From the NCBI RefSeq assembly GCF_011299575.1, contig NZ_CP049863.1, positions 1,922,001 to 1,986,000 of the forward strand: 64,000 nucleotides of DNA, written 5' to 3'. Below the pieces are notes generated by a model. That model saw nothing but the letters and a program-made list of their open reading frames with translations. It searched no databases and was not told the DNA's origin. A program made the translations under genes and the position numbers. Positions 35,628 through 61,820 of this stretch are shown piece after piece. Position 1 is the stretch's first letter. The number at the start of each line of letters is the position of its first letter. This DNA is from Leucobacter viscericola (lineage in GTDB: Bacteria; Actinomycetota; Actinomycetes; Actinomycetales; Microbacteriaceae).

Positions 35628-37181
35628 ATGCCCAACCCTCTCGGCGAACACCTGATTACGTCAAACGACGCTGGTTTCATCAGCGATATCGATCTGCTTA
35701 CTCTCGTTCGCGAAGGCGACCAAGACGCTTACGCCCAGCTCTACCAGCGCCATTGCGGCGCAGCACTTTCCGTTGCCAAGAAGTGGGCGAGATCCCTCAG
35801 CGAGGCCGAAGATCTCGTCGCCAACGCGTTCACGAGCATCCTCTCCGCGATCCGAACAGGGTCGGGTCCAACCTCTATGTTTCGCGCGTATCTCTACAGC
35901 ACCATCCGAAATGCGGCATACAGTACAGCCGCGACCGAACGCCGCTACGTCGACATCGATGAGTGGGATGAAAGCCTGATCCCCGCCGCCGAATTTGCAC
36001 CCGAGCTTGAGCCAGAAGAGACCGAACTCGTGCGGGCGGCCTTCAGCGGACTCACCCCCGAAGACAAAGAAATTCTCTGGTGCACCGAGGTTGAAAACCG
36101 CACGGTTTCAAGCGCTTCAGACATTCTCGGGCTCAGTAAACCCGTCGCCTACAGAGCACTCCGCACAGCAAAAGAACACCTTCGCGAAGAATACCTGCGC
36201 GTGCATATCTCCACCTCGGCGGAACGTGATGACGAGTGCAGATCGGTATCCAAATTGCTCCCGCGGTATATACGCGGAACCGTTCGCCCGACCACAAAAC
36301 GCATCGTCTCAAACCACGTCAGTCACTGTGTTTACTGCACCGCCGCCACGGCAGAATTGCGCGATGTCAACCGCGGTATTCACGGTGTCATCGCGCCGAT
36401 CATCCTGGGAGCCGGGGTGCTTGGCGCTCTCGGTTGGGCCGGTGCTCGTCCCGCTCAGGCTGCACAAGGATCGGCGGGCAGGTTCCTCGCAGCTTCTCGG
36501 GTCGGCGCCCGCCCCGCATTATTGATTGGGGTCGGGATCGCGGCCGTCATTGCGCTGGGTGCCGTGACCACGCAGGCCATCGTGTCGGATCAGCAACAGG
36601 ATCCCGGCGTCACGATCGCTGCGGCGAACAACATCCCGGATCCCGAACCGACGCCCGTTATCCCCTCAGACCAGAGCTCTCATTCCGACTCGCAGAGCCA
36701 AACCGATTCAGCGACAACCCCCGCGCCCGACCCCGACTCCTCCACGACTAACGACCAGGGTGATGATTCAGGTACTGACGGTTCAGGCACCACTGACCCT
36801 CCGCCGCCGGTGAACATCGATGACACCATCGCCTATCTCGATACCGACGCTTCCCTGTTGCAGAACGGGCAGGGAACAGCGGTGATCCGCTTTCATAACC
36901 CGACGGGGCGCACACTCACCGGAATCGTCGTGACTGTGACGCTCGACTCTCGGGCGACGCTCGTGCCACCGGGCAGCCAGCAGAGCGGAAATGTGCAGTA
37001 CGCGGGTGTTTCAGATCACGTCGTTAGCACCACGGTTGGCACACTCGCGCCCGACTCGAGTGGGCAGTTGCGGATCGCATTTACCTCGGCGATGGATGCG
37101 TCTGATCTGAGGGTCGCGATCAACTCCAACATCGCTGAACTCGGCGAGCAGAAGTCGGTGTCGCTGCTGCGGATTGTCTGA
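35628..37181 (+). CDS. ECF sigma factor fused to zinc-finger, membrane segments and DUF11-like domain (module 1)
   Basis: About 517 residues. Sigma region 2 (LVREGDQDAYAQLYQRHC, then AEDLVANAFTSILSAI and FRAYLYSTIRNAAY) and region 4 (LTPEDKEILWCTEVENRTVSSASDILGLSKPVAYRALRTAKEHL) form a complete ECF sigma factor. A zf-HC2-like zinc finger follows (H-V-S-H-C-V-Y-C), as in anti-sigma factors. Two hydrophobic segments come next (IAPIILGAGVLGALGWAGA and LLIGVGIAAVIALGAV), then a Ser/Asp/Pro linker and a DUF11-like beta domain (IRFHNPTGRTLTGIVVTVTL) at the end. It resembles the C-terminally extended ECF groups (ECF52/53 types). An upstream ATG at 35511 exists, but the ATG at 35628 fits the family start. 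Divergent from adhesin B. Confidence 0.85.
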   Translation: MPNPLGEHLITSNDAGFISDIDLLTLVREGDQDAYAQLYQRHCGAALSVAKKWARSLSEAEDLVANAFTSILSAIRTGSGPTSMFRAYLYSTIRNAAYSTAATERRYVDIDEWDESLIPAAEFAPELEPEETELVRAAFSGLTPEDKEILWCTEVENRTVSSASDILGLSKPVAYRALRTAKEHLREEYLRVHISTSAERDDECRSVSKLLPRYIRGTVRPTTKRIVSNHVSHCVYCTAATAELRDVNRGIHGVIAPIILGAGVLGALGWAGARPAQAAQGSAGRFLAASRVGARPALLIGVGIAAVIALGAVTTQAIVSDQQQDPGVTIAAANNIPDPEPTPVIPSDQSSHSDSQSQTDSATTPAPDPDSSTTNDQGDDSGTDGSGTTDPPPPVNIDDTIAYLDTDASLLQNGQGTAVIRFHNPTGRTLTGIVVTVTLDSRATLVPPGSQQSGNVQYAGVSDHVVSTTVGTLAPDSSGQLRIAFTSAMDASDLRVAINSNIAELGEQKSVSLLRIV

Positions 37182-37211
37182 TCCTCAACCCAAGCCTGCA
37201 AGAATGACGCC

Positions 37212-38135
37212 ATGACAACGTCGTTCACCCTGGTTCAGCTGCGCTACTTCGCGACGGTCGCCCGACTCGAGCACATGACGGCCGCGGCGGCCGAGCTCAA
37301 CGTGACGCAGTCGACGCTCTCCAGCGCCATCGCGCAGCTCGAGGCCGAGTTTGGCGTGCCACTTTTTGTGCGATTGCCGCGCCGCGGGCTCCGCTTGACG
37401 CCCGCCGGGCAGACGTTGCTCGCGCGCAGCGGAGCGTTTCTCGAGGAGGCCTCGCTTATTTCCCGCGCCGTGCGCGAAGACACCCCGGTGCTCACTGGCG
37501 AGCTCGTCGTGGGCATATACGCGCCACTCGCGCCGTTTCGCGCGCCAGTGCTGCTGCAGAAGTTCGAGCGCTTACACCCCGAGGTCAACCTGGTCTTTCT
37601 TGAGGGTGATCAGGGCACCCTGCAACAGGCGCTGCTCGACGGGCACTGCGAGGTAGCCCTCATGTACGACCTCGGGGTTGGCGATCGCTTCACGCGCCAG
37701 GTCGTGGAGCGAGTGTCGCCGCACGTCATTGTGCCGGAGGATCATCCGCTCGCTATCGCGGGTCGCAGCGAGGCCAGTCTCGCTGAGTTTGCAGACGAGC
37801 CGCTGATCCTGCTCAATCTGCCGCACACTCGCGAGTACTACCTGGGGTTGTTCAAGCAGCTCGGGATCACGCCCCGCGTGCGCCACGTGTCGCTCGGCTA
37901 CGAGACGGTGCGCTCGTTTGTTGCCCTCGGGCACGGCTACTCGGTGCTCAACCACTGGGTCGATCACGGCATGACCTACGCGGGAGAGCGTGTGGTGCCG
38001 ATTCGGCTCGCCGATCCCCTGCCACCAACGGAGGCCTCGCTCGTGCGGCTCGTCGACAACCGGCCGACGCGTAAGTCGCTGGCGTTTGAGGCTGTGTGTT
38101 TGGGGCGGCCTTCTGGCGACCAAAGGCAAGGTTAG
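37212..38135 (+). CDS. LysR family transcriptional regulator
   Basis: 307 residues. The N-terminal winged helix (FTLVQLRYFATVARLEHMTAAAAELNVTQSTLSSAIAQLEAEFGVPLFVRLPRRGLRLTPAG) is standard LysR, followed by a periplasmic-binding-protein-like effector domain (GELVVGIYAPLAPF, then LLDGHCEVALMYDLGVGD). It precedes the transporter/amidohydrolase/amidase genes on the same strand and probably controls them. No clear ribosome site precedes the ATG. The last codons lie inside an inverted repeat. The effector is not predictable. Confidence 0.92.
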   Translation: MTTSFTLVQLRYFATVARLEHMTAAAAELNVTQSTLSSAIAQLEAEFGVPLFVRLPRRGLRLTPAGQTLLARSGAFLEEASLISRAVREDTPVLTGELVVGIYAPLAPFRAPVLLQKFERLHPEVNLVFLEGDQGTLQQALLDGHCEVALMYDLGVGDRFTRQVVERVSPHVIVPEDHPLAIAGRSEASLAEFADEPLILLNLPHTREYYLGLFKQLGITPRVRHVSLGYETVRSFVALGHGYSVLNHWVDHGMTYAGERVVPIRLADPLPPTEASLVRLVDNRPTRKSLAFEAVCLGRPSGDQRQG

Positions 38136-38195
38136 TAACCAATGGCCAGGATAATTCCGCGTCAGCAACCTGGCCTTAAGTTACTAACCTTGCCT
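38124..38195. repeat. Two-tier inverted repeat at the end of the LysR gene
   Basis: Outer arms 38124-38139 and 38180-38195 (AGGCAAGGTTAGTAAC) are perfect. Inner arms 38144-38150 and 38169-38175 (GGCCAGG) are also perfect. The inner unit continues GGCCAGGATAATTCCGCG, closely matching GGCCAGGATAACCACGCG at 46279-46296. Probably a terminator of a dispersed hairpin family. Confidence 0.75.
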
Positions 38196-38397
38196 CTTGT
38201 GGGTCATGGCAGGATCAACTGGCCCCGGAAGCCCCTCGCACCACTTCACATCGATTTCATCGATCAGAAGCAACGAACATCTCCATTCGACGGGAGCTTC
38301 GCCGACCCTGAAGATAGGGAGTGCCCCGACTCTCGAGTTGGCTGTACCGGCAACGAAGCCGTGATCCACACCCGCAGGCACACCCCAGGAGAACGCA

Positions 38398-39803
38398 ATG
38401 ACGCTTCAATCCGACCCACCACGCGAGGCAACTCCCCCAAACGTCGCCCCCGCGACCGATCCCGTCAACATTCCCACCGGCCCGCTACCCGTTGTTGAGC
38501 GCCGCGCGCTCGACCGCACGAAGCGGCGCGTTCTGCTCGCCGGCAGTGTCGGCCAGTTCATCGAGTTCTACGACTTCAGCCTCTACGGGCTCTCGGCCAT
38601 CACCCTTTCGCAGCTGTTCTTCCCTGGAGAAAGCCCCGTCGCGGCGCTGCTCGCAACCTTCGCGACGTTTGGTGTTGCCTTCCTCATCCGACCGCTCGGC
38701 GGACTCTTCTTCGGGGCCCTCGGGGATCGCTACGGTCGACGGCCCGTGCTCTACGTGACGCTGCTCACTATCGGTGGGGCCACCGCGGCAATCGGGGTGC
38801 TGCCGACGTTCGCGCAGATTGGAGTGTTCGCGCCAATCCTGCTGGTGCTCTGCCGCCTATTGCAGGGATTCTCCGCTGGCGGCGAATCGGTTGGTGCGCC
38901 CGCGTTCGTCTTCGAGCACGCGCCAAAGGACCGCCGTGGATTCTGGCTGAACATCACCCTTGCCGCGACGGCACTGCCCTCGGTGATTGGCGGCACGTTG
39001 ATCCTGGTCCTCTCGACCAACATGGATACCGAAGCGTTTCAGAGCTGGGGCTGGCGGATTCCGTTTTTGCTCGCGCTACCCCTCGCACTCTTTGGGTTGT
39101 GGATCCGCACGCGCACTGAGGAATCCGAGGCGTTTAAGCAGGTGCAGGCGAAGCACAGCGGCGAGGTGCACACCCCGATTCGCGACGCGTTCCGCGAGAA
39201 CTGGCTGAAGATGCTGCAGGTGATCCTGGTGATGGGACTCACCGCGATGGGCTTCTACTTTCTCACCGGTTACTTCGTCTCGTACGTGCAGACCGCGGGT
39301 GAGCTCAGCCGCGAACAGTCACTGCTGATCAATGCGGCGGCCATGCTGCTCTACGCACTGGTGCTCCCCTCGGTGGCATCCTCGGTGACCGGGTTGGCCG
39401 CAAACCGATGCTGATTGCAGGATCACTCGCGATCGCCGTACTTGCCATACCCGCGTTCATGCTCGTCACCTCAGGATCCCTCGTGCTCGCGCTGCTCGGC
39501 CAGTTCATGTTTGTGCTGTGCCTGTGCACCTACGGCGGCGGTTGCTACACCTTCTTCGTCGAGATCTTCACGACACGCACCCGCTTCACGTCTGCCGCCG
39601 TCAGCTACAACGTCGGTTACGCACTCTTCGGCGGCACCGCGCCCTTCGTTGGCACCTGGCTCGTCGACGCCACCGGCATGAACGCCAGCCCGGGCATCTA
39701 CGTCGCCATAGCCGCAGCCATCGTCTTCCTCATTCTCGTTTTCACCAACGTGCCCGAAACCCACCCGCTCAAGCGGCGGACTACCCAAGGAGCCGACGCA
39801 TGA
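38398..39803 (+). pseudogene. MHS-family MFS transporter broken by a one-base frameshift
   Basis: The first frame (38398-39417) encodes TM1-8 of a metabolite:H+ symporter: VGQFIEFYDFSLYGLSA, GDRYGRRPVLYVTLL, GFSAGGESVGAPAFVFEHAP. It ends with an off-frame tail after residue 323. Adding one C to the CCCC at 39366-39369 restores LPLGGILGDRVGRKPML, the second GDR-x-GRK motif between TM8 and TM9, and joins the second frame (TM9-12, from about 39370 to 39803). The full protein would be about 468 residues, normal for the family. It is either a real inactivation or a sequencing error in a short homopolymer. AGGAG six bases before the ATG supports the start. Its 3' end overlaps the hydrolase start by four bases. 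Confidence 0.85.
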
Positions 39804-42666: not shown

Positions 42667-42688
42667 GCTCCAGAGCCACTACCAACAT

Positions 42689-43492: not shown

Positions 43493-43601
43493 AGTGTAAG
43501 CCTATACACGGGGCCAAGATCCGGGTGCGGGCGACTCCTCGTCGCCGAGCCTGCATTGCAGCGTCGAAAGTGCGGTTCAGAACTGCAAGTTCAGCGCTGG
43601 A

Positions 43602-46329: not shown

Positions 46330-49300
46330 TTAGTTGCGAGCCGGGTGTTGCTGGGAGCGGCGCCGTAGTACCAGCACGGCACCCAGGCCAGCGAGCAGCA
46401 GGCCAACACCCGTCAGGGCGGCCGCCGACTCGAAGCCGGTCAGTGCGAGGTCGGTCGCCCAAACCACACGGTCGGTGTCGGTCGAGGTGCACGTGTCGTT
46501 GTCATCCTCGCAGCGCCCCGGCGCCTTAACGACCACGCTGTTCACGACTTTGTCGCCAGCACGCGCCTGCTCAGACACCTTTACCGTGACGTGCACAACC
46601 TTGTTAGCACCCGCCGCAAGCGAAGACACCCGCCACACCACCGCAGAGCCCTCAGCAGACAGCTTGCCACCGTCGCTCGCCGAAACGAACGACACGTTCT
46701 TCGGCAGGATGTCCGTGACAATCGCGTTCTTCACGACAGTGTTGACCGAGTCGTTACCAATTGTCACGTCGTAGGTGAGTGTGTCGCCGGCCTTCACCTC
46801 GGTGCGGTGGTCATCTTTCAACACCCACAGCCCCTCGGGGGTGTGGTCGATGTCGGTGGAGGAGCACTCGTCACCGGGCATGCTCGGGTCGTCCTTGCAG
46901 GTGCCGTCACTTGTGACCGTGGCCGTGTTGACGATCTTGGTGCCGCCAAGCAGGCCCTTGTTCACCGTGACGGTGATGGTGATCTTCTTCACCTGACCGG
47001 GAGCCATATCGCCAAGCGACCACTCGAAACCGTACGGGTTGTCGAACGAGACCGTACCCGGAATAGACGACCTCACAAACGTCAGGTTGTCGGGCAGCAC
47101 GTCGCGCACGACCACGTCGGGTGCGGTGTACTTCGTGTAGTTCGTCACCTCGAGAACGTAGTTGAGTGTCTCGCCAGGCTTGACGAGCGTACGCCCATCG
47201 TCCTTTACGATCTTGACCCGACCGATCTCGTCAACCGGCGCAGGAATCTTCACGTACCCGGCGTCGATCGTGCGATTGATAAATGGAGCATCCACCTTGT
47301 CGCTCGCGACCGAGGGGGTCACGTTTGTTTCGCCCTCACCCAGGTGGATCACCGCGGTGCGGCCCGTGGCCACATCGGCATCCGAATCGACGGTGGCATC
47401 GCTGCCCGCAAGCGCGACCGTGCGGTCGTAACCGTCGACAGCCCCAAACTCGACGGTGTAGTCACCGGCAGCCAGGTTGTCGAAGTGGTAGTAACCGTTC
47501 TTGTCGGTGGTGGTGCGCGCGAGCTCGGTGCCGTCGCTTCCATAGAGGATCACCGAGACCCCCGCAAGCGGATCCTCTCCCTTGTCTTGAACGCCGTTTT
47601 TATTGGCGTCGACCCAGGTGTAGTCGCCGATCGCGTAAGTGGTCGCGGCGACCGCGTACCAGGGATCCTCGTCGCTCACCCGAGTGCCGGAGGACACCCC
47701 GACGCCCGCCACCGAGACGCTGTCGCCGTGGGTTTGCGCCGACTTCAGCGCGGGCACGGTGCCGGTGCACTCGAAGCTCGCGCCGACCACAAACGGGCCG
47801 CCCCAGGCCACACCGGTCGAGGGCCCACCGAGCTTCGAGAAGTCGCAGCTCAGGCCGGTCATCGCGGGCCCGTTGAGGGTCACATCGGAGACAGTCACAT
47901 CACGCAGCGCCTCAGCACCGGTGTTGGTGACGGTCATGGTAATTGGTGTCGCAGAACCGATCGTGACGGTCTTGCCGGGAGCCGTGTCGAAGTCGCCAGC
48001 CGGGAACCCATCGTCAGTCGACCACTTCTCGACGCTCATCGCGGGCTCGGTTGGCTCGGCCATCTGATCCACAACCCACGGCGCTTCGGCCGCAAGCATC
48101 GGCGAACCATCCTTCGCCTGCACCGAGTCGAGCGCGATACGGTTCCAGGTGCGCTCGCCGCCCACGATCGGCGAACCGTCGGCCAGCGTCGTTGGTGTGG
48201 CCATCGTCCACTGGGCGTCCACAAACTCGCCACCCTTAAACACACGCTCACCGAAGTCGAAGCGGATCGAGCGGATCGCCGACCAGTCGGTCACCCCGGC
48301 AGCGGTCTGCCAGGAGGTGTCTTGGGCACCAGCGCAGTAGAAGGAGGCACTGTGGTCGTCGGAGTTGTCCATCTCGGGGCGGCACGGATCGGTCTTGGTC
48401 GAATAGGTAATCGTCATTGAAGGATCGGTCACCGCGATCGGCCCGGTCATGGTCGGTACCCACTCGTTGCCATTGCCAGGGGGATCCTGCGCGTAGCGAC
48501 CGTTGGTCACGCCGTGATTGCCGGGGTACGGCAGCAGGTCGTACGCGACGAGATCCTTCAGATCGCGGTTGCCGAAGTTGCCCATCTTCACGGAGTAAGA
48601 AACCGTGCCGCCAGGGGTCGAGGTGCCCACCTGGTTCGACTGGCCGGGAACCTCGGCGGAGTCGAACCACTTGCCGTTGTCTTGATCGCCGGTGACGTGC
48701 TTTTCGATCCATGTCGCGGCGGTATCGGCGAGCGTAAAGGCCCCACCAGCGCGCGGTGCGTATTCCTTCGTGTCGCCGTCGCCGTCAGCATCGTAAAGGT
48801 CTGCGCTCCAATCGTTGGAGTCGTTCGGAACGCGCACATCACGATCAAACGCCGTCGCGAGGTTTCCACGGTACGAGGGCTCAGTTGCTTCACCCGTGTA
48901 GCTTCCCGAAACCGCACCCGGGTTCACGACGGTGTCGTACTGGTACTTGCAGTTGGTGTTGAGACTCGGAATCAGGATGCCCTTAGTGCCCGTGTAGGTC
49001 CACTTCACGGTCTCGCTGCGCGGGCCACTTGTGAATGGGGTGCCGTGCGCCTGGTTCCAATTGTTCAGCACCTCCTCCGAGAACTCCGATGCTGCCGGGC
49101 AGTAGCTCTTGTTGCTTGCAAGCGCCCGGAAAGAACCCGTCTGGTAGCTCAGCTCGTTCGGAATGTCGTCGTACACAAGCGGCATCCACGGAGTATTGAG
49201 GTCGTTATTCTGCAACTGCAGCGTCCAGGTGATCGTGCCGCCGGGCCCAACGGGGGTCTGTGATGCATCTTTGTAGATGGCAGGCTTCGGAGTGGGAACC

Positions 49301-50688
49301 TGCGAGACCTCAATGGTCGCGCAGGGCCTGACCTGGTTGCTGGCACCAGCGGTCTTAACCGTGGCGCAGTTCGTAATCTCAGTGACATTGGCGAGGGCGT
49401 CCCAATCACCGTCTGACCAGATGGCAACGCTGAAAGATTCTTCGACCCTTACACCAACAAATTTGACGGTCACCTTGGTCACTCGAGGTGCGCCCGCAGG
49501 AACTTCGACCCGATCCACGTTGAAATCGAGTGGACCGCTGCTGGTGCCGTCCGCATACGTAAACTCGACGGTGCTGCCGGGGTGCACGTTGCGCCACTCG
49601 GGCCCGCGATCAACCACTGTCACGTTGAGGCCGTCGGGGATCGGGTCAGTCACCGTGATGTCTTGGGTCAGGTTGCCCCAGTTGGTCGCGACGATTTCGA
49701 AGCGCTGCTGACCACCCCCGCGGCTGATCGACGTGCCGGTTTTTGAGGCCGTGACACGATAGTCAGGCGGTGTATCCGCGACAACCACCGGAGACTGCGC
49801 GGTCTTTGTCTCGGGTTTGGGGCTGCCGTTTGGTGTGCCCGTAAGCGTCGCAGTGTTAATGATGGTCTTGCCCGTTGCAGATGCCGGGAAGGTGACGGTT
49901 ACGCTCGCGTCTGCGTGCCCAAACAGGTTGTCGAGAGTCCACGTGACCGTGTGGCTCGCAGCATTGTAAGTACCGCCTGCCGTTGCGCTCACGAACGTCG
50001 CCTCAGCTGGCAGAGTGTCAACCAGCGTCAGGTCGTGGTACCCGATTGCGCCGTGGTCGCTGGCGGGATCAAGATGTGTAATGTCGGCGCTGAGGGAGTA
50101 CGTGTAGTTTTCATTGGGTCGAGTCTGCGGTGCGCCGCGCTTCGTGAGCTGCAACTCACTCGCCGCGAGCAGCTCGATTGTTGCGGAGCGGGTAACGTCA
50201 GCCTTGCCGGGCTGCGACACCGTCATCACCGTCGTCTGATCGCCAGGCATCGTCGTGTAGTTCTCGGTCGGCCACGAGATCGTCAGCTGCGACACCAGCC
50301 CAGCCTCCGTCGCCGCATACACAACGTCGACCGTGCCGTTGGCGTTGGCCACAACCGAGGTCACCCCGGGCGGATACGGCTTGACGACCGTCGCGGCACC
50401 CGTGGCACCGACGGGCTTGCTGAAGCGCAGTGTCACGTCCTTGCACTGAGCAGGATCCGAGCAGCTCAGCTGCGCCTCGTAGACGAGCGAGTCGCCAGAA
50501 TAGACAGTGGTGTTCTTGGCAACCAGCGCAGTGCTCAGCATGCCGTCGTTGCCGGGAGCGGCGAAGGCGCTGTGGGCTGATCCCCCAAGCACCAACAAGG
50601 GCACAACAAGAACGGCCACGATAGCCAGCAGCAACGTACGCATGGATTTACGGCCGCGTGGCCTGGCTGCGATCAGAGGGGTATACAC
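46330..50688 (-). CDS. Sortase-anchored DUF11/SdrD B-type adhesin (module 2)
   Basis: About 1452 residues. Order: signal peptide (TLLLAIVAVLVVPLLVLGGSAHSAFA); several DUF11-like segments (YKDASQTPVGPGGTITWTLQL); a Cys-containing central region with G-T-K-G-I-L-I-P-S and DPCRPEMDNSDDHSA; one SdrD B-like domain (about 1016-1142, IGDYTWVDANKNGVQDKGEDPLAGVSV, GYYHFDNLAAGDYTVEF) that usually binds calcium; two DUF11 domains (about 1157-1275 and 1279-1396); LALTG at about 1413, a hydrophobic helix and RRRSQQHPARN. A TTG start at 50724 is open, but AAAGAG six bases before the GTG at 50688 is better. It lies 120 bases after a membrane-bound sigma factor gene and is a close paralog of the adhesin at 53859-58664. 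Confidence 0.9.
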   Translation of the reverse strand: MYTPLIAARPRGRKSMRTLLLAIVAVLVVPLLVLGGSAHSAFAAPGNDGMLSTALVAKNTTVYSGDSLVYEAQLSCSDPAQCKDVTLRFSKPVGATGAATVVKPYPPGVTSVVANANGTVDVVYAATEAGLVSQLTISWPTENYTTMPGDQTTVMTVSQPGKADVTRSATIELLAASELQLTKRGAPQTRPNENYTYSLSADITHLDPASDHGAIGYHDLTLVDTLPAEATFVSATAGGTYNAASHTVTWTLDNLFGHADASVTVTFPASATGKTIINTATLTGTPNGSPKPETKTAQSPVVVADTPPDYRVTASKTGTSISRGGGQQRFEIVATNWGNLTQDITVTDPIPDGLNVTVVDRGPEWRNVHPGSTVEFTYADGTSSGPLDFNVDRVEVPAGAPRVTKVTVKFVGVRVEESFSVAIWSDGDWDALANVTEITNCATVKTAGASNQVRPCATIEVSQVPTPKPAIYKDASQTPVGPGGTITWTLQLQNNDLNTPWMPLVYDDIPNELSYQTGSFRALASNKSYCPAASEFSEEVLNNWNQAHGTPFTSGPRSETVKWTYTGTKGILIPSLNTNCKYQYDTVVNPGAVSGSYTGEATEPSYRGNLATAFDRDVRVPNDSNDWSADLYDADGDGDTKEYAPRAGGAFTLADTAATWIEKHVTGDQDNGKWFDSAEVPGQSNQVGTSTPGGTVSYSVKMGNFGNRDLKDLVAYDLLPYPGNHGVTNGRYAQDPPGNGNEWVPTMTGPIAVTDPSMTITYSTKTDPCRPEMDNSDDHSASFYCAGAQDTSWQTAAGVTDWSAIRSIRFDFGERVFKGGEFVDAQWTMATPTTLADGSPIVGGERTWNRIALDSVQAKDGSPMLAAEAPWVVDQMAEPTEPAMSVEKWSTDDGFPAGDFDTAPGKTVTIGSATPITMTVTNTGAEALRDVTVSDVTLNGPAMTGLSCDFSKLGGPSTGVAWGGPFVVGASFECTGTVPALKSAQTHGDSVSVAGVGVSSGTRVSDEDPWYAVAATTYAIGDYTWVDANKNGVQDKGEDPLAGVSVILYGSDGTELARTTTDKNGYYHFDNLAAGDYTVEFGAVDGYDRTVALAGSDATVDSDADVATGRTAVIHLGEGETNVTPSVASDKVDAPFINRTIDAGYVKIPAPVDEIGRVKIVKDDGRTLVKPGETLNYVLEVTNYTKYTAPDVVVRDVLPDNLTFVRSSIPGTVSFDNPYGFEWSLGDMAPGQVKKITITVTVNKGLLGGTKIVNTATVTSDGTCKDDPSMPGDECSSTDIDHTPEGLWVLKDDHRTEVKAGDTLTYDVTIGNDSVNTVVKNAIVTDILPKNVSFVSASDGGKLSAEGSAVVWRVSSLAAGANKVVHVTVKVSEQARAGDKVVNSVVVKAPGRCEDDNDTCTSTDTDRVVWATDLALTGFESAAALTGVGLLLAGLGAVLVLRRRSQQHPARN

Positions 50689-50759
50689 AGTGAACTCTTT
50701 CTTCAAAACACACCGGGGGTGCAATTGGGGACAGTTAGGAAAGATGCCCCGGCGACGAA

Positions 50760-50779
50760 TTGATTACAGGTTTTTCGAA
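50760..50779 (-). promoter_or_regulatory. Conserved motif upstream of the module 2 adhesin
   Basis: The plus-strand sequence TTGATTACAGGTTTTTCGAA matches TTGATTACGTGATTTTCAA at 58732-58750. The motifs lie 72 and 68 bases upstream of the respective adhesin starts. It may be a promoter or operator; paralogy alone could also explain it. Confidence 0.4.
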
Positions 50780-53816: not shown

Positions 53817-53858
53817 GGTGTTCTCCTTTAAATTGGTGATTTTTTAAGCTTGAAGGGT

Positions 53859-56800
53859 TCACTCGGCGGTGCGGCGACGGCGAACCATCAGCACAGCTCC
53901 GATTGCAAGCACGAGGGTTGCGCCGCCCAGCAGGCCGAGCGTCGATCCCGAACCTGTGACAGCGAGCCACGAGAACTCGGTCGCCAGTACCTTGTCGGTG
54001 TCCGTCGAGGTGCAGGAGTCACTGTCCATGGGGCCATCGGTGCACTCGCCCGGAGCCTTGACGGTCGCCGTGTTCACGACCTTGTCGCCGCCCTTCGCCG
54101 AGGCAGCGACCTTCACGGTCACCTTCACGGTCTTCGAGGCGCCAGGCTCCAGGGTTCCGATCTGCCAGGTCACCGCAGTGCGGTCGGCCGACAGCGCTCC
54201 CCCATCGCTTGCCGAAACGAACTCGACGTTCTTCGGCAGGTTGTCGGTGGCAACGGCGTTCTTGACCGAACTCTTTGTTGAAGAGTTGCCGATCGTCACG
54301 TCGTAGGTGAGGGTGTCACCCGCGCGCACCTCGCTGCGGTGGTCGTTCTTCGAGACCCAGAGGCCTGCGGGGGTGCGGTCGATGTCGGTGGACGAGCACT
54401 CGTCACCCGGCATTTTCGGGTCATCGGTGCAGGTGCCGTCACTGGTCACGGTTGCCGTATTGACGATCTTCGTGTCGCCCGGCAGGCCCTTGTTGACGAC
54501 CACGGTCACCACGATCGTGCGCACCTCACCCGGCTTCATATCGCCCAGCGACCACTCGAAACCGCGCGGGTTGTCGAAGGTGACCGTGCCCGGAATTGAC
54601 GACTTCACGAACGTGACGTTGTCGGGCAGCGCGTCGCGCACCACGACCTTCGGCGCAATGAGCTTGGTGTAGTTCGTCACAACGAGCTTGTAGTTCAGCG
54701 TCTCGCCCGGCTTGACGAGCGTGCGCCCGTCGTCTTTCACGATCTTGACGCGGCCGACCTCTGGTGGAACCGGGCCCTTATCAAGCACATACCCGGCGTC
54801 GATCGTGCGATTGATAAACGGAGCCTCAACCCCATCACTCGCAACCGAGGGTGTCACGTTTGCCTCACCCTTGCCCAGGTGGATCACCGCGGTGCGACCG
54901 GTCTTCGCGTCAGCATCGGAGTCGACCTTCGAGTCACTGCCAGCCAGCGCCTTCGTGCGGGTGTACCCCTTCACGTCACCGAACTCGACGGTGTAGTCAC
55001 CGGCGGCAAGGTTGTCGAAGTGGTAGTACCCGTTCTTGTCGGTGGTGGTGCGGCTGAGCTCGGTTCCATCGGCTCCATAGAGGATCACCGAGACTCCCGA
55101 AATCGGCTTCTCTCCCTTGTCTTGAATGCCGTTGTTGTTGGCATCAATCCAGGTGTAGTCACCGATTGCGAAGGTGTCGGTGTAGGGGGTCGGGATCAGC
55201 ACGTAGCCGGCGTCGATCGTGCGGTTGATAAACGGAGCCTCAACCCCGTCACTCGCGACCGACGGTGTCACATTGGCTTCGCCTTCACCGAGGTGGATCA
55301 CGGCCGTGCGGCCGGTCGTCACATCGGCGTCGGAATCGACCGTTGAGTCGTCACCCGCCAGTGCTGTCGTGCGGGTGTACCCGTCGACCGCCCCAAACTC
55401 GACCGTGTAGTCGCCGGCTGAGAGGTTGTCGAAGTGGTAGTACCCGTTCTTGTCGGTTGTCGTGCGGCTGACCTCAGTGCCGTCTGATCCGAAGAGGATC
55501 ACCGTCACGCCCGAGATTGCCTTCTCGCCCGCATCCTGAATGCCGTTGCTGTTCGCGTCGACCCAGGTGTAGTCGCCGATCGCATACGTTGTTTCTGCGA
55601 CCGCGTACCACGGATCCTCATCGCTCACCTTGGTGCCCGACTTCTCGCCAGTACCTGTAACCGAAGCATTGTCGCCGTGGGTCTTGCCCGACTTCAGCGC
55701 AGGTACCGTGCCGGTGCAGTCAAAGCTGTCGCCAACCTTGAACGTGCCCTTCCAGGTGACACCCGTGGCGGGACCGCCAAGCTTCGAGAAGTCACAGCTC
55801 AAGCCCGTCATCGCAGGGCCATCGAGTGTTGCATCGCTGACCGTCACATCACGCAGATCCTCAACACCATTATTGGTGATGGTCATCGTGATCGGAGTCG
55901 TCTTACCAACCGCAACCGTCTTACCGGGAGCGGTGTCGAAGTCGCCAGCGGGGTACCCGTCGGCCGTCGACCACTTCTCGATGTGGATCGCGGGCTCTGT
56001 GGGCTCAGCCATCTGATCCACAACCCACGGCGCCTCAGCCGCGAGCATCGGAGAGCCGTCAGCAGCCTGCACCGAGTCGAGCGCGATGCGGTTCCAGGTC
56101 CGTTCTCCGCCGAGGATCGGCGAACCGTCAGCCAGTGTGGTCGGTGTTGCCATCGTCCACTCGGCGTTCACGAACTCGCCGCCCTTGAACACCCGATCAC
56201 CGAAGTCGAAGCGGATCGAGCGGATCGCCGACCAGTCGGTCACCTCTGCAGCTGTCTGCCACGAGGTGTCTTGAGCTCCACCGCAGTAGAACGGTGCCGA
56301 GTGATTGTCGGAGTTGTCCATTTCGGGCCGGCACGGGTCGGTCTTTGTCGAGTAGGTCACCTCGGTCGAGGGATCACTCACCGTGATCGGCCCCGTCATG
56401 GTCGGGATCCACTCGTTGCCCAGGCCCGGAGGGTTCTGCGCGTAGCGACCGTTGGTCACACCGTGGTTGTTCGGGTACGGCAGCAGGTCGTAGGCGACCA
56501 GGTTCTTGAGATCGCGGTTGCCATAGTTACCCATCTTCACGGAGTACGAGACCGTACCGCCGGGGGTCGAGGTGCCGACCTGATCAGACTGGCCGGGCAC
56601 CTCGGCAGAGTCGAACCACTTGCCGTTGTCCTTGTCGCCGGTCACGTGCTTTTCGATCCACGTTGCCGCGGTGTCGGCGACGGTGAAAGAACCGCCATTG
56701 CGCGCCGCTTTCTCGGTGGTGTCACCGTCACCATCGGTGTCAAAAACGTCCCAGACCCAGCCGTACGGGCCACCGGGGATGCGCACATCTCGGTCAAATG

Positions 56801-58664
56801 CCTGAACGAGGTTGCCTCGATAGTCTGCCTGGGTGGCGCTACCGGTGTAGGTGCCCGAGGCGGCACCCGGGTTCACAACCGTCTCGTACTGGTACTTGCA
56901 GTTCGCACCGTAGAGCGGGATCAAGATTCCCTTTGTTCCGCTGTAGGTCCAACGTACTGTGGTGGCGCGGGGCCCATCCACGAAGGGTGTGCCGTGCTGG
57001 CTGTTCCAGCCGTCGAGCACCTCTTCGGTGTACTCACTCGCGGCAGGACAGTAAGCGGGGTTGTTGGCGGCATCCCTGAAGGTTGCGGGCACAAAGGTCA
57101 GCTGGTTTGGAATGTCGTCATATACAACCGGCATCCACGGCGTCACCCCGTTGCTGTTGCCAAGTTCCAGGGTCCAGGTCATCGTGCCGCCGGGGCCAAC
57201 GGGAGTCTGCGGGGTGCTCTTTCCGATTGCGGGATCGGGAGTCGGCACGAGAGACGTTTGAACGCTTGCACACTGAGTCTGTTTGTCGTCGGCGCCAACA
57301 GTCTCAATGGTTGCGCAGTTCGTAACCACAGTGTTGTCACCCATGACATCCCAGTCAGCGATCGATCGGATGACCCCTTCAACGTGTCCGTTGACGGGCA
57401 CATTCTTGAAGAAGAAGTTCACCTGGGTCACTCGCGGAGCACCAGTCGGAACGTCAACACCGGCAAGCCCAAAATCTAAGGGGCCGCTAGAGGTGCCATC
57501 GGCATAGAGGAATTCAACAGTGCTGCCCGGGCGCGCGCCATCTTTGTAGTAGCCCCATTCGGCTCTCTGCACCACAACACCCGCGGGAATCGGATCCTTA
57601 ATATTGATATCCACGGCGACGTTACCGAAGTTGTCGGCCTGAATATCGAAGTGCTGGCTGACGTCTGCGATAAACGAGGTTCCAGTCTTCTGAGCGTTCG
57701 TTTTATAGATCGTCGGAATGTCGCGAATGTCGACGGGAGACTGGGCCGTGACGGTCTCGGGTACATTACTCACGTTCTGTGTACCGGTCAGCGAGACGTG
57801 GTTAATGATCGTCGTGTCCATCGCGGAATCCGGGAAAGTCACCGCGACGTTGACGTAGTCATCACCCTCGATGTAGCTGGGGTGCCAGGTAACCGTGTGG
57901 GTCGCCGCGTCGTACACGCCACCCTTAGTGGACGCAACATACGTTGCCTCTGGGGGAAGCTGATCCACGAGTGTGATGTCGTGGTAACCGATGGCACCGT
58001 GCAGAGACGCAGGATCGAGGTCGGTGACACCGTAGTTCACCGTGTACCAGTAGACCTCGTTTGGCTTAGTCTGCGCGGCTCCGCCCTTTTGCACCACAAG
58101 CTCGCTCGCCGCTTTCAGGTCGATGGTCGCTTCGCGCGTCACATCGGGTAGGCCCGGCTGCGACACCGTCATAACCGTAGTCTGGTCACCCGGAGCAGTG
58201 AAGTAGTTCTTCGTGGGCCACGAAACCGTAAGCTGCGACACAAGCCCCGGCTGCGTTGCCGAGTACACCACGTCGATCGTGCCGTCGTCATTCATTGCGA
58301 CCGAGGTCACTCCGGGCGGGTACGGCGTATTGACAATACCCTTCGCTCCGGCAGTCACACCGGCCGGCTTGCTGAAGTGCAGCGTCACGTTGGTGCACTG
58401 CGCCGGATCCGAGCAGCTCAGCTGCGCCTCGTATACGAGCGTGTCACCCGAGTAGACCGTGGCATTCTTAGGCGCGAGGGCCGTGTTGAGCATGCCCTCG
58501 TTGCCCTCAAGAAGTCCACCGCCACCCGGAGCAGCAAAGGCAGCGTGACCCGGCCCGCTCAGGGCCAGCACTGACAGCATGACGGTCAGGAGCAGCGCGA
58601 AAACGGACTGAATGGTCAGCTTCTTTCCGCGCTTCAAATTTCGAACGGTGGGGGTGGTATTCAC
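53859..58664 (-). CDS. Sortase-anchored DUF11/SdrD B-type adhesin (module 3)
   Basis: 1601 residues, closely related to the module 2 adhesin. Order: signal peptide (SVFALLLTVMLSVLALSGPGHAAFA); DUF11-like segments; Cys-containing central region (DPCRPEMDNSDNHSAPFYC); two SdrD B-like domains in tandem (about 1024-1157 and 1164-1294) where the paralog has one; two DUF11 domains to about 1545; LAVTG at about 1564, a hydrophobic helix and RRRRTAE. The start is GTG with GGAAAG upstream. It follows the sigma gene at 58816-60213 by 151 bases, and a two-gene membrane pair lies downstream. The likely role is adhesion or surface structure. Confidence 0.9.
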   Translation of the reverse strand: MNTTPTVRNLKRGKKLTIQSVFALLLTVMLSVLALSGPGHAAFAAPGGGGLLEGNEGMLNTALAPKNATVYSGDTLVYEAQLSCSDPAQCTNVTLHFSKPAGVTAGAKGIVNTPYPPGVTSVAMNDDGTIDVVYSATQPGLVSQLTVSWPTKNYFTAPGDQTTVMTVSQPGLPDVTREATIDLKAASELVVQKGGAAQTKPNEVYWYTVNYGVTDLDPASLHGAIGYHDITLVDQLPPEATYVASTKGGVYDAATHTVTWHPSYIEGDDYVNVAVTFPDSAMDTTIINHVSLTGTQNVSNVPETVTAQSPVDIRDIPTIYKTNAQKTGTSFIADVSQHFDIQADNFGNVAVDINIKDPIPAGVVVQRAEWGYYKDGARPGSTVEFLYADGTSSGPLDFGLAGVDVPTGAPRVTQVNFFFKNVPVNGHVEGVIRSIADWDVMGDNTVVTNCATIETVGADDKQTQCASVQTSLVPTPDPAIGKSTPQTPVGPGGTMTWTLELGNSNGVTPWMPVVYDDIPNQLTFVPATFRDAANNPAYCPAASEYTEEVLDGWNSQHGTPFVDGPRATTVRWTYSGTKGILIPLYGANCKYQYETVVNPGAASGTYTGSATQADYRGNLVQAFDRDVRIPGGPYGWVWDVFDTDGDGDTTEKAARNGGSFTVADTAATWIEKHVTGDKDNGKWFDSAEVPGQSDQVGTSTPGGTVSYSVKMGNYGNRDLKNLVAYDLLPYPNNHGVTNGRYAQNPPGLGNEWIPTMTGPITVSDPSTEVTYSTKTDPCRPEMDNSDNHSAPFYCGGAQDTSWQTAAEVTDWSAIRSIRFDFGDRVFKGGEFVNAEWTMATPTTLADGSPILGGERTWNRIALDSVQAADGSPMLAAEAPWVVDQMAEPTEPAIHIEKWSTADGYPAGDFDTAPGKTVAVGKTTPITMTITNNGVEDLRDVTVSDATLDGPAMTGLSCDFSKLGGPATGVTWKGTFKVGDSFDCTGTVPALKSGKTHGDNASVTGTGEKSGTKVSDEDPWYAVAETTYAIGDYTWVDANSNGIQDAGEKAISGVTVILFGSDGTEVSRTTTDKNGYYHFDNLSAGDYTVEFGAVDGYTRTTALAGDDSTVDSDADVTTGRTAVIHLGEGEANVTPSVASDGVEAPFINRTIDAGYVLIPTPYTDTFAIGDYTWIDANNNGIQDKGEKPISGVSVILYGADGTELSRTTTDKNGYYHFDNLAAGDYTVEFGDVKGYTRTKALAGSDSKVDSDADAKTGRTAVIHLGKGEANVTPSVASDGVEAPFINRTIDAGYVLDKGPVPPEVGRVKIVKDDGRTLVKPGETLNYKLVVTNYTKLIAPKVVVRDALPDNVTFVKSSIPGTVTFDNPRGFEWSLGDMKPGEVRTIVVTVVVNKGLPGDTKIVNTATVTSDGTCTDDPKMPGDECSSTDIDRTPAGLWVSKNDHRSEVRAGDTLTYDVTIGNSSTKSSVKNAVATDNLPKNVEFVSASDGGALSADRTAVTWQIGTLEPGASKTVKVTVKVAASAKGGDKVVNTATVKAPGECTDGPMDSDSCTSTDTDKVLATEFSWLAVTGSGSTLGLLGGATLVLAIGAVLMVRRRRTAE
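54781..55608 (-). repeat. 414-bp tandem duplication of the SdrD B domain
   Basis: Two highly similar units with a 414-base period (138 codons). Each reads IGDYTWVDAN, GYYHFDNL, AGDYTVEFG, VDSDAD and APFINRTIDAGYV. The boundary is seen from the repeated GGCGTCGATCGTGCG at 54795 and 55209. The paralog at 46330-50688 has a single unit, so copy number has changed by recombination. Confidence 0.88.
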
Positions 58665-58711
58665 GGTTTCACTTTCCTTGCTCTGCCTCAGGCAGATGAG
58701 TGGCTCATAGG

Positions 58712-58771
58712 GAAGAGAGCGCTATTGATCGTTGATTACGTGATTTTCAAAATTGATGTTTCATCAATTTT
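58712..58771 (-). promoter_or_regulatory. Motif cluster upstream of the module 3 adhesin
   Basis: Three elements lie here. GAAGAG-N4-CTATTGATC (58712-58730) matches 35318-35336 upstream of adhesin B. TTGATTACGTGATTTTCAA (58732-58750) matches 50760-50779 upstream of the module 2 adhesin. A perfect AT-rich inverted repeat, AAAATTGATG-TTT-CATCAATTTT (58749-58771), adjoins them. The cluster lies 48-107 bases before the adhesin start. Confidence 0.5.
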
Positions 58772-58786
58772 TGAGTCGTTGAAGAG

Positions 58787-58802
58787 AGCGCCGAAGGGCG
58801 CT
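58787..58802 (-). terminator. Short hairpin directly after the module 3 sigma gene
   Basis: AGCGCC and GGCGCT pair around GAAG, 14 bases past the sigma stop codon, the same layout as at 50793-50808. The minus strand continues CTCTTC. Confidence 0.55.
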
Positions 58803-58815
58803 GCTCGAGCCAGAA

Positions 58816-60213
58816 CTACAGGCGCGCGATCTGCGCCTTGGGGAAGCCGTCGGTTTCGTCCGACAACTGGAACTTCCAGTTGTAATCATCGAGGCCAACG
58901 AAGGTCGGGTCGGGAATGCAGACGGCGGTCGATCCGCTCACCTCACACCCGGCCGAGGCGTTCAGAATGCTCACGCCGGGCGGAGCAGTCACCGTGACCG
59001 AGTAGGCATCGGGCCTGGTCGACTGGTCGAAGCGCACGTTGAGCAGCGCAATGTGATCGCCATTGGCCCAGTCGAGCGAGCGGACTCCGGGCGGCAACTC
59101 CACGTCTGCGTCACCACCACCGGAATTACCATCGCCGGAGTTGTTCGTTCCCGAGTCGGTGTTGCTCGAGGGCTTATCACTCTTCGGCTTCGTCGGCGGG
59201 GCCTTCGTTTCACCCTGCTTCTTCGGGGAGCTTGTGGATCCCTGATCCTGAACCGTCGACCCACCGGCAGAGTGTGCAGTGCCGGAAGTGCCGGAATCCC
59301 GGGCCGCATCCGAGTTAACGGGGGCGTTCAGCAACAACAGCCCAATCGCAATCACCAGCGCACCAGCACCGGCCATAATCGCGATCACACCCTTGCGAGC
59401 AAACCAGGCGGTCGTCACGGTGGTGCCGGCCGCCGCACCCGTCGTTGCCGACGCGGGAGCCGCACCCCACACGATTTCGTGCATGAGCGCTCCGCTTGCG
59501 GCAACAACCACGAGGGTGTTCACCGGCAACGAGATCGAGCGCATCCGCTTAGCCGTGGCCGTGCAGTGCGCGCACTCCTCGAGGTGGCGGGCAACTCGCT
59601 TGGCCCGTTTGCTCGGCACCACGTTGAGCACCGACTGGGCAAGATACATCTGCGGCAGGCTGGCACACGCGCTCTCACCGGCCGTCACCTCCACGAGGTA
59701 GTTGAGGCGCAGCGCCTCTCGCGCTCGAAACGCAGCGGTGGCAACCGCTTGCGGAGAGATCTCGAGCGCCTCGCCGATATCGGCCATCTTCTCGCCATCG
59801 ACCTCGGCGAGCCACAGCACCTGCTGCGCACGCTGCGGCAGGGCGGCGTATGCCCGAGAGATAGCACCCTCGTCCCAGGTTTCGTTGCCGACAAGATCGG
59901 GATCCACGTTCGCTTCTGCGTCGAGCAGGTCTGCAAGCTCGTCGGTCGCAACCTCGCGGTTTACCCGCTTGCCGTAGTTGATCGACTCGTTTCGAATGCA
60001 CACGCGCATGTAGCTGAGGAAGGTCTCGGGAGTTGGCCCTGCGCCCTTGCGAATCATCGCGAGCACAGAAAGAAACGCCTCAGAGACAACGTCTTCGCTC
60101 GCGGCCGAGTCCCTTACGTAGCCGTGGGCGTAGCCGACCAGCTTCGGGCGAAGCTGGTCGAAGAGCTCGCCGAACGCCTCGTCTGACATCGCTGCTGACG
60201 TGGATGACTGCAT
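58816..60213 (-). CDS. ECF sigma factor fused to zinc-finger, membrane segments and C-terminal domain (module 3)
   Basis: 465 residues, similar throughout to the module 2 sigma factor. Regions 2 (FGELFDQLRPKLVGYAHGY, SEDVVSEAFLSVLAMI) and 4 (LPQRAQQVLWLAEVDGEKMADIGEALEISPQAVATAAFRAREAL) are intact. Zinc finger: C-A-S-L-P-Q-M-Y-L and H-L-E-E-C-A-H-C. Hydrophobic segments: ISLPVNTLVVVAASGALM and VIAIMAGAGALVIAIGLLLL. A linker rich in Ser, Lys and Gly leads to the terminal beta domain (GVRSLDWANGDHIALLNVRFD, Cys pair in SAGCEVSGSTAVCI). AGGA six bases before the ATG fixes the start. It is likely to control the adjacent module 3 adhesin. Confidence 0.9.
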   Translation of the reverse strand: MQSSTSAAMSDEAFGELFDQLRPKLVGYAHGYVRDSAASEDVVSEAFLSVLAMIRKGAGPTPETFLSYMRVCIRNESINYGKRVNREVATDELADLLDAEANVDPDLVGNETWDEGAISRAYAALPQRAQQVLWLAEVDGEKMADIGEALEISPQAVATAAFRAREALRLNYLVEVTAGESACASLPQMYLAQSVLNVVPSKRAKRVARHLEECAHCTATAKRMRSISLPVNTLVVVAASGALMHEIVWGAAPASATTGAAAGTTVTTAWFARKGVIAIMAGAGALVIAIGLLLLNAPVNSDAARDSGTSGTAHSAGGSTVQDQGSTSSPKKQGETKAPPTKPKSDKPSSNTDSGTNNSGDGNSGGGDADVELPPGVRSLDWANGDHIALLNVRFDQSTRPDAYSVTVTAPPGVSILNASAGCEVSGSTAVCIPDPTFVGLDDYNWKFQLSDETDGFPKAQIARL

Positions 60214-60554
60214 GTGATTTCCTGGCCTGATCGAGCCGTAGGGACCGACTACAACGTCTGACTTTCAATGAGAGGCGCTCAGTTTCCCCTTGTGACCGAG
60301 CGCGGGTGCCTTGCAAATATATCTGCAAGGCCGCGAAGTTTCAGAACCGTCGCGAGGATTTCATAGTAGGCAGACGCAACCGCCGGGTAAGTATTCCTGA
60401 GAACAGAGGACGTAGTGTGCAGTTTCCCGCAACGGTCAGCAAACCTGCCAAGACCTGCGTCATCACGCCCCTAGGGGGCCCTTCGAGCGGGGTGGTCTGA
60501 AGCTGTGGAGTGCCTGAGATACGTATGTTTACACCCGTTACTACGTAGTTTTTG
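60214..60554. promoter_or_regulatory. 341-base control region upstream of the module 3 sigma gene
   Basis: On the minus strand CTGCCTACTATG (TACTAT at 60368-60363) lies 150 bases before the start, and CACTACGTCCT at 60417-60407 lies above it; both recur upstream of the module 2 sigma gene. A near-perfect 22-base palindrome CCTTGCA-N8-TGCAAGG (60309-60330) falls in the predicted leader. GCCCCTAGGGGGC near 60468-60480 is another short palindrome, perhaps ending the sigma gene at 60555. No small gene seen. Confidence 0.5.
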
Positions 60555-61820
60555 CTACCTCGCAGATCGCACGTTTACGGCGGTCTTTTTGGCCGAGGTG
60601 TCGTCGGAGAGCGTGACGCTGTAGGTGCCGGGGCGCACCACCTCGAGCGCCCGAGCGCGGGGTGACCGAGTCGTGTCGAGCACCGTTGTGCGTACTGGGT
60701 CCTGGTTATTGGCCCCGGATTCGGCGGCCTTGACGACTTCAATCTTTACGTTGCAGCTTGCCGAGTCTTCGGAGAGGCTCCACACCTCGGTGCGCACGTC
60801 GACGGCCTGGCGCTGCAACTCGCAGCTGCCCACCCGCAGCAGGGTACTCACGGCTCCAATGCTTTCCCCGAGCTGAACCTGCATGCCGTCGGACAGCGGT
60901 GGCGACCACATCACACCACCCAACACCACGGCAGCAACAAGCGGCACTACAACCATGGCGGCTTTGAGCGGCGCACCGACCGAGGCGAACAGGGAAGCCG
61001 CCGTCGCCGAGGCTGGAGTGCTGCGCAGAGATTCGGCCGCCAGCGTGCCGAGCCCAGCCAGAAACACGATCGACAGCAACACCCGGTCTGATCCTCGCAG
61101 ACGAGACTCGACGAGCACACACCGGTTGCACGTCTCAAGATGCTCGCGCAGCCCAGGGCTCAGGGCGACCCCGCGCGAGCGTCCCTTGCGCCTCGCAACC
61201 TCCTGCAGCATCGGCGCGTACTCGCGGCAGGCGCGGTTCGGTGACGCAGCAACCGATCTCACCACAAACTGCTCACGAAGCTCTGCGGCGGCACTCTGAT
61301 AGGCCCGGGTGGCGGTAGCGGAGCTCACGCCAAGAAGCTCCGCTATCTCGCGAGACGGAATGTTCTCCACGGCCCGGTACCAGAGCACCTGCTGCGACCT
61401 GGCGCTCAACGAGTTGAAGGCCTCACTGAGCCATTCGGCCGAGTATCCCGAAATGGCGAAGTGCTCACCCTCGTACAGCCGGGCCAGGTCTTCCGGATCA
61501 AGGGCAACCTCGGCCTTCTCCTCCCGCTCTTCATCCCTAGCAATGCTGCGAATCGTCGAGATGAGGTAGTGACTCATCGAGATCGTCGGGCCCTTGCCCC
61601 GCCTGATAGTTTCGAGAATCTGGGTGAACGCTTCAACCACCAGATCGTCAGCCTGGTCGCTCGTCGCAACATACTTCCAGGCGCGCGAGTAGGCGAACCG
61701 GCGATGCTTTGCGAAGAGCTCGCCAAAGGCGGCTGGGTCGCCTGCTCGATGGCGCTGCAGAAGATCTTGGTCGTCCAAGAACTCCTGCGTGTAGTGCTTT
61801 TTTGCGATCCCCATCTTCAT
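60555..61820 (-). CDS. ECF sigma factor fused to zinc-finger, membrane segments and C-terminal domain (module 4)
   Basis: 421 residues. Region 2: LLQRHRAGDPAAFGELFAKHRRFAYSRAW, then QADDLVVEAFTQILETI. Region 4: LSARSQQVLWYRAVENIPSREIAELLGVSSATATRAYQSAAAEL. Zinc finger: C-R-E-Y-A-P-M-L-Q then H-L-E-T-C-N-R-C. Hydrophobic segments: VLLSIVFLAGLGTLAAESL and AAMVVVPLVAAVVLGGVMW. The C-terminal domain (about 110 residues) has Cys in GSCELQ and SASCNVKIEV. In its sigma part it is closer to the module 1 protein (LRRG-type start, D-Q-D-L-L) than to modules 2 and 3. It lies 83 bases downstream of the partial repeat adhesin, so it may be co-regulated with that gene. Confidence 0.9.
   Translation of the reverse strand: MKMGIAKKHYTQEFLDDQDLLQRHRAGDPAAFGELFAKHRRFAYSRAWKYVATSDQADDLVVEAFTQILETIRRGKGPTISMSHYLISTIRSIARDEEREEKAEVALDPEDLARLYEGEHFAISGYSAEWLSEAFNSLSARSQQVLWYRAVENIPSREIAELLGVSSATATRAYQSAAAELREQFVVRSVAASPNRACREYAPMLQEVARRKGRSRGVALSPGLREHLETCNRCVLVESRLRGSDRVLLSIVFLAGLGTLAAESLRSTPASATAASLFASVGAPLKAAMVVVPLVAAVVLGGVMWSPPLSDGMQVQLGESIGAVSTLLRVGSCELQRQAVDVRTEVWSLSEDSASCNVKIEVVKAAESGANNQDPVRTTVLDTTRSPRARALEVVRPGTYSVTLSDDTSAKKTAVNVRSAR

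Follow-up and report, generated by a model that had tools for sequence, protein, structure and literature searches.

In a 64,000-nt stretch of the 3.70-Mb single-contig genome of Leucobacter viscericola (here called the window), we examined four genes that each join an extracytoplasmic function (ECF) sigma factor and an anti-sigma-like zinc finger in one membrane-bound chain, and that each lie beside a gene for a large surface protein of the LPXTG type. The same arrangement is found across the genome, where a gene with a sorting signal immediately adjoins 18 of 20 long sigma genes of this kind, compared with 3 of the 61 background genes counted at these loci (Fisher, 5e-13). Judged from the sequences, each sigma factor is probably dedicated to the control of its neighboring surface gene, and it may, as a more tentative proposal, directly sense the fiber itself.

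Pairing of one-chain sigma factors with wall-anchored proteins

The four genes (P0001 to P0004; Table 1) had been predicted to encode, besides sigma regions 2 and 4, a finger with the HxxxCxxC pattern, hydrophobic stretches, a linker of low complexity and a small beta domain. All four reading frames are open as predicted, with a possible alternative start at 35511 for P0001. Regions 2 and 4 are present in one chain in each of them (TIGR02937 sigma70-ECF, 63.3 to 68.6 bits; cutoff, 42.9), which places them among the ECF sigma factors, and the HxxxCxxC motif is likewise found in all four. The Pfam model zf-HC2 stayed below its cutoff of 22.2 bits, with 20.1 bits for P0001, 14.4 bits for P0003 and the other two not listed. 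One membrane span is convincing and an earlier hydrophobic segment, after which several paralogs show by eye an AxA-like run of small residues, is ambiguous; the linker is clear in three proteins and short in P0004; and the small beta domain is predicted for P0003, with a C-terminal domain of some kind in the chain of the other three. P0001 has two hydrophobic segments, a linker rich in proline, serine and aspartate, and a cysteine-free C-terminal domain.

A search of the genome with P0003 gave 23 matches, of which 20 long sigma factors were kept. The three short matches excluded lie at 2028373 (beside a separate membrane reading frame), 2794628 (about 200 amino acids [aa]) and 2086346 (a classic sigma factor). 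The histidine and both cysteines of the finger and one more upstream cysteine are invariant in all 20 aligned paralogs, consistent with one-chain sigma/anti-sigma proteins in which the finger module would inhibit the sigma part.

A large surface protein with an LxxTG sorting motif and membrane tail does lie beside each of the four sigma genes, as had been claimed. These partners carry immunoglobulin-like (Ig), cadherin, DUF11 or SdrD domains, and motif, hydrophobic span and positive tail are present in all four translations, as in LPXTG-type wall-anchored proteins. In TIGR01167, the partner of P0004 scored 16.7 bits (cutoff, 15.9), and the other three also matched at their ends, at or above the cutoff. 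The P0004 partner gene continues beyond the window edge and encodes 2087 aa as called in locus L040. The genome has three sortases and 61 LPXTG_anchor matches at E values up to 1, of which 50 are above the cutoff; at E up to 1, all 14 control genomes also gave matches to this model, which in 9 genomes exceeded the cutoff.

The same gene caller and the same sorting-signal rule were applied to every set of genomes, the neighbor gene having to encode at least 300 aa. A stricter count, restricted to the 50 NCBIfam LPXTG_anchor matches above the cutoff, found 6 of 20 sigma genes within 1.2 kb of a match. Random placement gave a mean of 0.57 and a maximum of 5 in 20000, and circular shifting a mean of 1.76, with 2.2% of shifts reaching 6. 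Pairing beyond chance, which the original prediction had proposed to check, was thus observed genome-wide and less strongly in this NCBIfam-only statistic; the whole-genome LPXTG_anchor search omits several adjacent signals that the sorting-signal rule finds. As controls, 18 classic-ECF loci were taken from the same genomes; in the 13 with a called sigma gene, no gene with a sorting signal lay within two genes of it. For background genes in these loci, the counts were 2/303 immediate and 3/303 within two genes.

Genomes of the same genus contributed 29 sigma genes, of which 23 were paired immediately and 26 within two genes (background, 0/78 and 3/78), and pairing was also frequent in two other genera (8/10 in genome G026 and 5/7 in G041). 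The rest of the sampled family, represented by hand-picked loci, mostly one per genus, gave 4/43 immediate and 5/43 within two genes. The latter would be 9/43 with loci L141, L144, L158 and L161, which were dropped, their apparent partners being proteins with 9 to 11 spans. Genome G023 gave 0/2 and 1/2, and named genomes gave 11/67 and 18/67. The counts cover loci with a called long sigma gene and so omit L102, L129, L167, L173 and 13 of 80 named loci; the same-genus count also omits the matches G008:C153, G012:C43 and G010:C406, and one short G023 match was omitted as well. The core profile was matched at E ≤ 1e-25 in 77 of 199 family genomes and 47 of 85 genera, with up to 11 candidates per genome scored, and at E ≤ 1e-30 in 40 of 296 phylum genomes, with up to 7. 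Since most of the other family members sampled are unpaired (38/43), pairing characterizes certain clades and not the sigma family as a whole. Conserved pairing in relatives, on which the original prediction had been made to depend, therefore holds for the genus, G026 and G041 and mostly fails in the remainder of the family. In Brevibacterium (L188, L190, L202, L206 and L208), sigma factors called at 477 to 504 aa are encoded divergently from LPRTG proteins of 703 to 1047 aa. In Leucobacter coleopterorum (L181), an in-frame stop appears to split the sigma gene and the neighboring adhesin gene is apparently interrupted too, one hint that the two may share their fate.

Sigma-pilin fusions and the outer domain

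A single reading frame of Arthrobacter alkaliphilus (L207:7950-10415) joins sigma region 2, zf-HC2 and a membrane span to a complete major pilin of the SpaH/EbpB kind; Pfam also recognizes pilin and anchor domains in it. Over 450 aa, the pilin portion shares 79% identity with the shaft pilin encoded by the second gene downstream, which is followed by a sortase gene. The fusion matches NF033902 with 356.6 bits (cutoff, 95). Scores above the cutoff were also reached by L224 (344.3 bits) and L180 (98.5 bits), and scores below it by L258 (84.2), L100 (69.2) and L098 (57.2), where only the last part of the profile is covered. The fusion in L224 (7821-10412) likewise combines a sigma factor with a complete major pilin in Arthrobacter. 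Among the best 120 of 1542 matches, sigma and pilin Pfam domains were combined in at least 16 clusters (P0045 to P0060, including the query's own), of which ten carry an Arthrobacter name and three lie on contigs of more than 4 Mb; their database names are those of a pilin or, in a few cases, of a sigma factor. A second kind of fusion occurs in the Leucobacter-type loci L098, L099, L100 and L258 and in L180 from another genus, where the ectodomain consists of only the last pilin domain and the sorting signal. In the two loci compared (L098 and L258), it shares 52 to 53% identity with the shaft pilin encoded there. Each kind of fusion groups in a clade of its own (0.999, including three sigma factors without a listed pilin domain, and 0.963), and the common ancestor of the two clades spans 141 tips in a midpoint-rooted tree, so that two origins of the fusion would be the simpler reading.

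Net charge before the last span exceeds that after it in 94 of 111 sigma factors, the reverse being the case in 3, and the ectodomain has either no or two cysteines in 20 of 20 own-genome sigma factors. From these charge and cysteine patterns, the N-terminal sigma part is predicted to lie inside and the C-terminal domain outside. An AlphaFold model of P0003 (predicted local distance difference test [pLDDT], 73.5) contains a helix at residues 231 to 249, the main membrane helix, a low-confidence linker and the beta domain (residues of helix and domain in Table 1), and in its sigma part it agrees with solved structures of ECF sigma factors. Modeled alone, with three aligned sequences, the beta domain forms a sandwich (pLDDT, 81.3). 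A fold search with this domain, which belongs to ectodomain type E3, gave weak, tied matches, none at E ≤ 0.001, to chitin- and cellulose-binding modules, a fibrillar adhesin domain and the basal pilin EbpB; because the best rows were tied, no fold family was chosen or excluded.

Ectodomain types were defined by clustering the last 140 residues of 111 sigma factors and compared with a sigma core tree of 134 tips; they mostly track its clades and the gene order. For type E1 (11 members with a cysteine pair), the adhesin gene lies upstream on the same strand in 8/8 paired cases, and type E4 (5 members) is divergent from the adhesin gene in 4/4; types E5 and E6 adjoin pilin-like genes of the LPxTG type. 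In another type, the outer domain is absent and there is only a proline-rich linker, which ends in a short acidic motif with tryptophan (e.g., DDTTPNW). This acidic-then-tryptophan ending was seen in L023, L024, L025, L028, L074 and L075, and in L077, L088, L092, L121, L122 and L227. The four sigma factors of the window fall into three clades: P0002 and P0003 are sisters (0.996), P0004 groups with the sigma factor of L034 (1.0), and P0001 stands apart, its exact position differing between two trees. In L079 (G023), a sigma factor of 1335 aa carries a DUF11-type domain in its outer part.

Promoter-like motifs and explanations of the pairing

The promoter-like motif GTAAY-N-YCTTT, tested with spacings of 15 to 19, lies upstream of 8 of 58 paired adhesin genes (observed spacing, 18 to 19) and of 0/43 other adhesin genes, 0/118 sigma genes and 0/1436 control genes (1/1436 on the reverse strand). 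Three of its 25 sites in the L. viscericola genome directly precede sigma-paired adhesin genes, namely, the window site (Table 1) and those in L028 and L025; the L025 motif was placed by coordinates, and the gene caller set the start of that adhesin gene later. Furthermore, a GCGTCAT[AG] box, derived by k-mer enrichment on the same regions used for its count, occurs 34 times in 105 regions upstream of sigma genes, compared with 7 in 75 upstream of adhesin genes and 14 in 650 other regions. It stands in sense orientation 34 to 131 bp upstream of 19 sigma genes, 17 of them unpaired, which suggests self-regulation of the sigma factor. The sequence CGGTCTTTA, likewise from k-mer enrichment on the regions counted, was found with at most one mismatch in 7/12 versus 16/1436. 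A pooled dyad search of 81 upstream regions gave nothing clearly exceeding shuffles. The hexamer ACTACG, seen by eye before the sigma genes of the window, occurs at 1.62 per kb upstream of own-genome sigma genes versus 0.33 per kb in other own-genome regions; it was not used, as its 10 hits fall in 5 of 19 regions and it is little enriched in relatives (0.33 versus 0.24 per kb). In the adhesin leaders of L072, L076, L084, L087 and L089, GC-rich inverted-repeat-like stretches were seen by eye, most clearly GCCCGGCTYCTG and, further on, AGTCGGGCC, in most leaders after a CGTCACGAT box; perhaps they form an RNA leader element.

We propose that the ECF sigma part is kept inactive in cis by the zinc-finger module and that the membrane helix tethers both to the extracytoplasmic domain. 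Once a signal reaches the ectodomain, the chain would be cut first on the outside and then within the membrane; the candidate for the second cut is an M50 site-2 protease, the only one found in the genome. The freed sigma part would then transcribe the neighboring wall-anchored protein gene from that gene's own promoter. The likeliest signal would be the state of the same fiber (its export, assembly or engagement), with tension or a ligand as other options. Dedicated control is the simplest account because pairing is conserved and clade specific, the ectodomain is predicted to lie outside, and the motif is confined to paired adhesin genes. The fiber itself is suggested as what is monitored because the ectodomain copies the neighboring pilin or its last domain in two lineages. 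The original prediction of self-contained, fiber-dedicated sensors is thereby the best-supported reading, its regulatory link being supported rather than proven; the comparison it drew with phase switching of adhesins found no support in this analysis.

Several observations weigh against dedicated control. No partner was detected for the own-genome sigma factors L026 and L035 or for L078, L081 and L085 in the genus, and besides the unpaired family members, 49 of 67 named-genome loci are unpaired. phmmer found no match at E < 1e-3 between the four window ectodomains and any of the paired adhesins. The GTAAY-N-YCTTT motif covers only the 8 of 58 paired adhesin genes, 7 of them next to sigma factors with the tryptophan tail, and a looser form with spacings of 16 to 18 was found before 5/58 paired adhesin genes, 2/118 sigma genes, 0/43 other adhesin genes and 6/1436 controls. 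Since its 25 sites in the whole genome equal a reversed control (27 sites), the motif is meaningful by position only. Moreover, it was drawn up by eye from the tryptophan-tail adhesin genes of L074, L075, L077, L088 and L092, while the sites of the window, L028 and L121 were in view as well, so that only the L025 site is independent.

The sigma factors might instead be ligand sensors of the ECF52 kind, the ectodomain binding a carbohydrate or other surface ligand and turning on the matching adhesin while the fiber is not sensed. We regard this as somewhat unlikely, since the carbohydrate-binding fold matches are weak and tied with pilins and unrelated sandwiches, and since it leaves unexplained both the fusions to a neighbor's pilin and the proline-rich tails that carry only the short tryptophan motif. 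A sigma factor could also itself be a building block of the fiber: sortase would take up the outer domain as the pilus base, and completion or pulling of the pilus would unfold the tether and free the sigma part, the window sigma factors acting likewise by contact without being joined. This idea is doubtful at present. The sortase signal on the fused sigma factors would fit a reporter of jammed or unprocessed surface protein that controls export, sortase or wall genes elsewhere rather than its neighbor. The GCGTCAT[AG] box before mostly unpaired sigma genes agrees with such a self-regulated reporter, and envelope-stress ECF sigma factors are common in bacteria. The occurrence of GTAAY-N-YCTTT before paired but not other adhesin genes speaks against it, and we consider it quite improbable. 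Absence of any functional link, with sigma and surface genes sharing variable regions and duplicating together, would suit a genome this rich in surface genes and the resemblance of P0002 and P0003 to a duplicated pair. It is nevertheless very improbable, given pairing at separate places, in several genera and sigma clades and in clade-specific order, and given sigma factors fused to the neighbor's pilin.

To our knowledge, how Gram-positive bacteria choose which of dozens of wall-anchored fibers to display is largely open. If dedicated control is true, one-gene switches each beside their own fiber, with fusions naming the partner, would make this question testable pair by pair and be a source of compact surface-to-promoter devices. 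Should the sigma factor be a building block, it would be a gene switch wired to a bacterial fiber as a gauge of force or assembly.

Window features and relation to known systems

Features of the window are collected in Table 1. A further surface protein paired with a sigma factor (2036 aa, LSLTG; locus L034) reaches into the window with its N-terminal part, at positions 1 to 1798; its sigma gene lies just past the left window edge (genome 1916377-1917612).

Table 1. Sigma factors, surface proteins and motif site, in window coordinates
Feature	Position	Strand	Remarks
P0001, one-piece ECF sigma/anti-sigma, 517 aa	35628..37181	+	sigma2, sigma4, HVSHCVYC
P0002, one-piece ECF sigma/anti-sigma, 463 aa	50810..52201	-	ectodomain type E3, two Cys
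P0003, one-piece ECF sigma/anti-sigma, 465 aa	58816..60213	-	sister of P0002
P0003 zinc-finger motif HLEECAHC, residues 210-217	59563..59586	-	
P0003 main membrane helix, residues 275-294	59332..59391	-	
P0003 predicted extracytoplasmic beta-sandwich with Cys pair, residues 377-464	58822..59085	-	
P0004, one-piece ECF sigma/anti-sigma, 421 aa	60555..61820	-	ectodomain type E8, two Cys
Surface protein, 1793 aa, Big_9/cadherin repeats, LALTG + membrane tail	29819..35200	-	divergent from P0001
Surface protein, 1452 aa, DUF11 + SdrD_B, LALTG + membrane tail	46330..50688	-	same strand, downstream of P0002
Surface protein, 1601 aa, SdrD_B + DUF11, LAVTG + membrane tail	53859..58664	-	downstream of P0003
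Surface protein, C-terminal 698 aa in window, LSLTG + membrane tail	61904..64000	-	same strand, upstream of P0004
Further surface protein, 1812 aa, LVNTG	24184..29622	-	same kind as adjoining 29819..35200, no sigma of its own
Promoter-like GTAAT-N18-TCTTT	50740..50767	-	between P0002 and adhesin 46330..50688; genome 1972740-1972767

C-terminally extended ECF groups are indeed known, as the original prediction had stated: ECF52 and related groups with a finger, a span and an outer extension have been described and proteolytic release has been proposed (PMC5826349, PMC8999054). Like the window proteins, SCO4117 of Streptomyces coelicolor combines an ECF sigma factor, zinc finger, membrane span, proline-rich extension and outer domain in one chain, and its proposed activation is by proteolysis, as proposed here (PMC5826349). 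Streptomyces relatives of the NPCBM type nest in the same sigma tree. The finger and span after the sigma domain are shared by the four window proteins (HxxxCxxC in 4/4; span by hydropathy and model); a C-terminal NPCBM domain was not matched in Pfam in any of the four at E ≤ 1, the E3 fold being weakly similar to carbohydrate-binding modules. SCO4117 differs in having a C-terminal carbohydrate-binding domain and pleiotropic effects (PMC5826349), whereas the window sigma factors stand one to one beside wall-anchored proteins. A term search of PMC8999054 found no mention of LPXTG, adhesin, pilin, pilus, surface protein or sortase, and the literature searched, which left most subscription papers and bioRxiv preprints outside, held no account of sigma/adhesin pairing or sigma-pilin fusion.

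Sigma and anti-sigma functions also share one membrane protein in IutY of Pseudomonas putida (PMC8999054, PMC5411451), which is freed by Prc and RseP but belongs to iron-uptake cell-surface signaling in a Gram-negative bacterium (PMC8999054). In Porphyromonas gingivalis, a secretion-system protein with a conserved C-terminal domain, PorA, is reported to affect the PorXY-SigP pathway, which includes an ECF sigma factor (PMC7712824); unlike in the window, these are separate proteins, and the system is type IX secretion. Closest to the fusions are SpaA/SpaH-type sortase pilus operons: the L207 and L098 loci likewise encode, along with a sortase, a shaft pilin and a larger protein of the LPXTG type, but, in contrast to those operons, include a sigma factor fused to the pilin or to its last domain.

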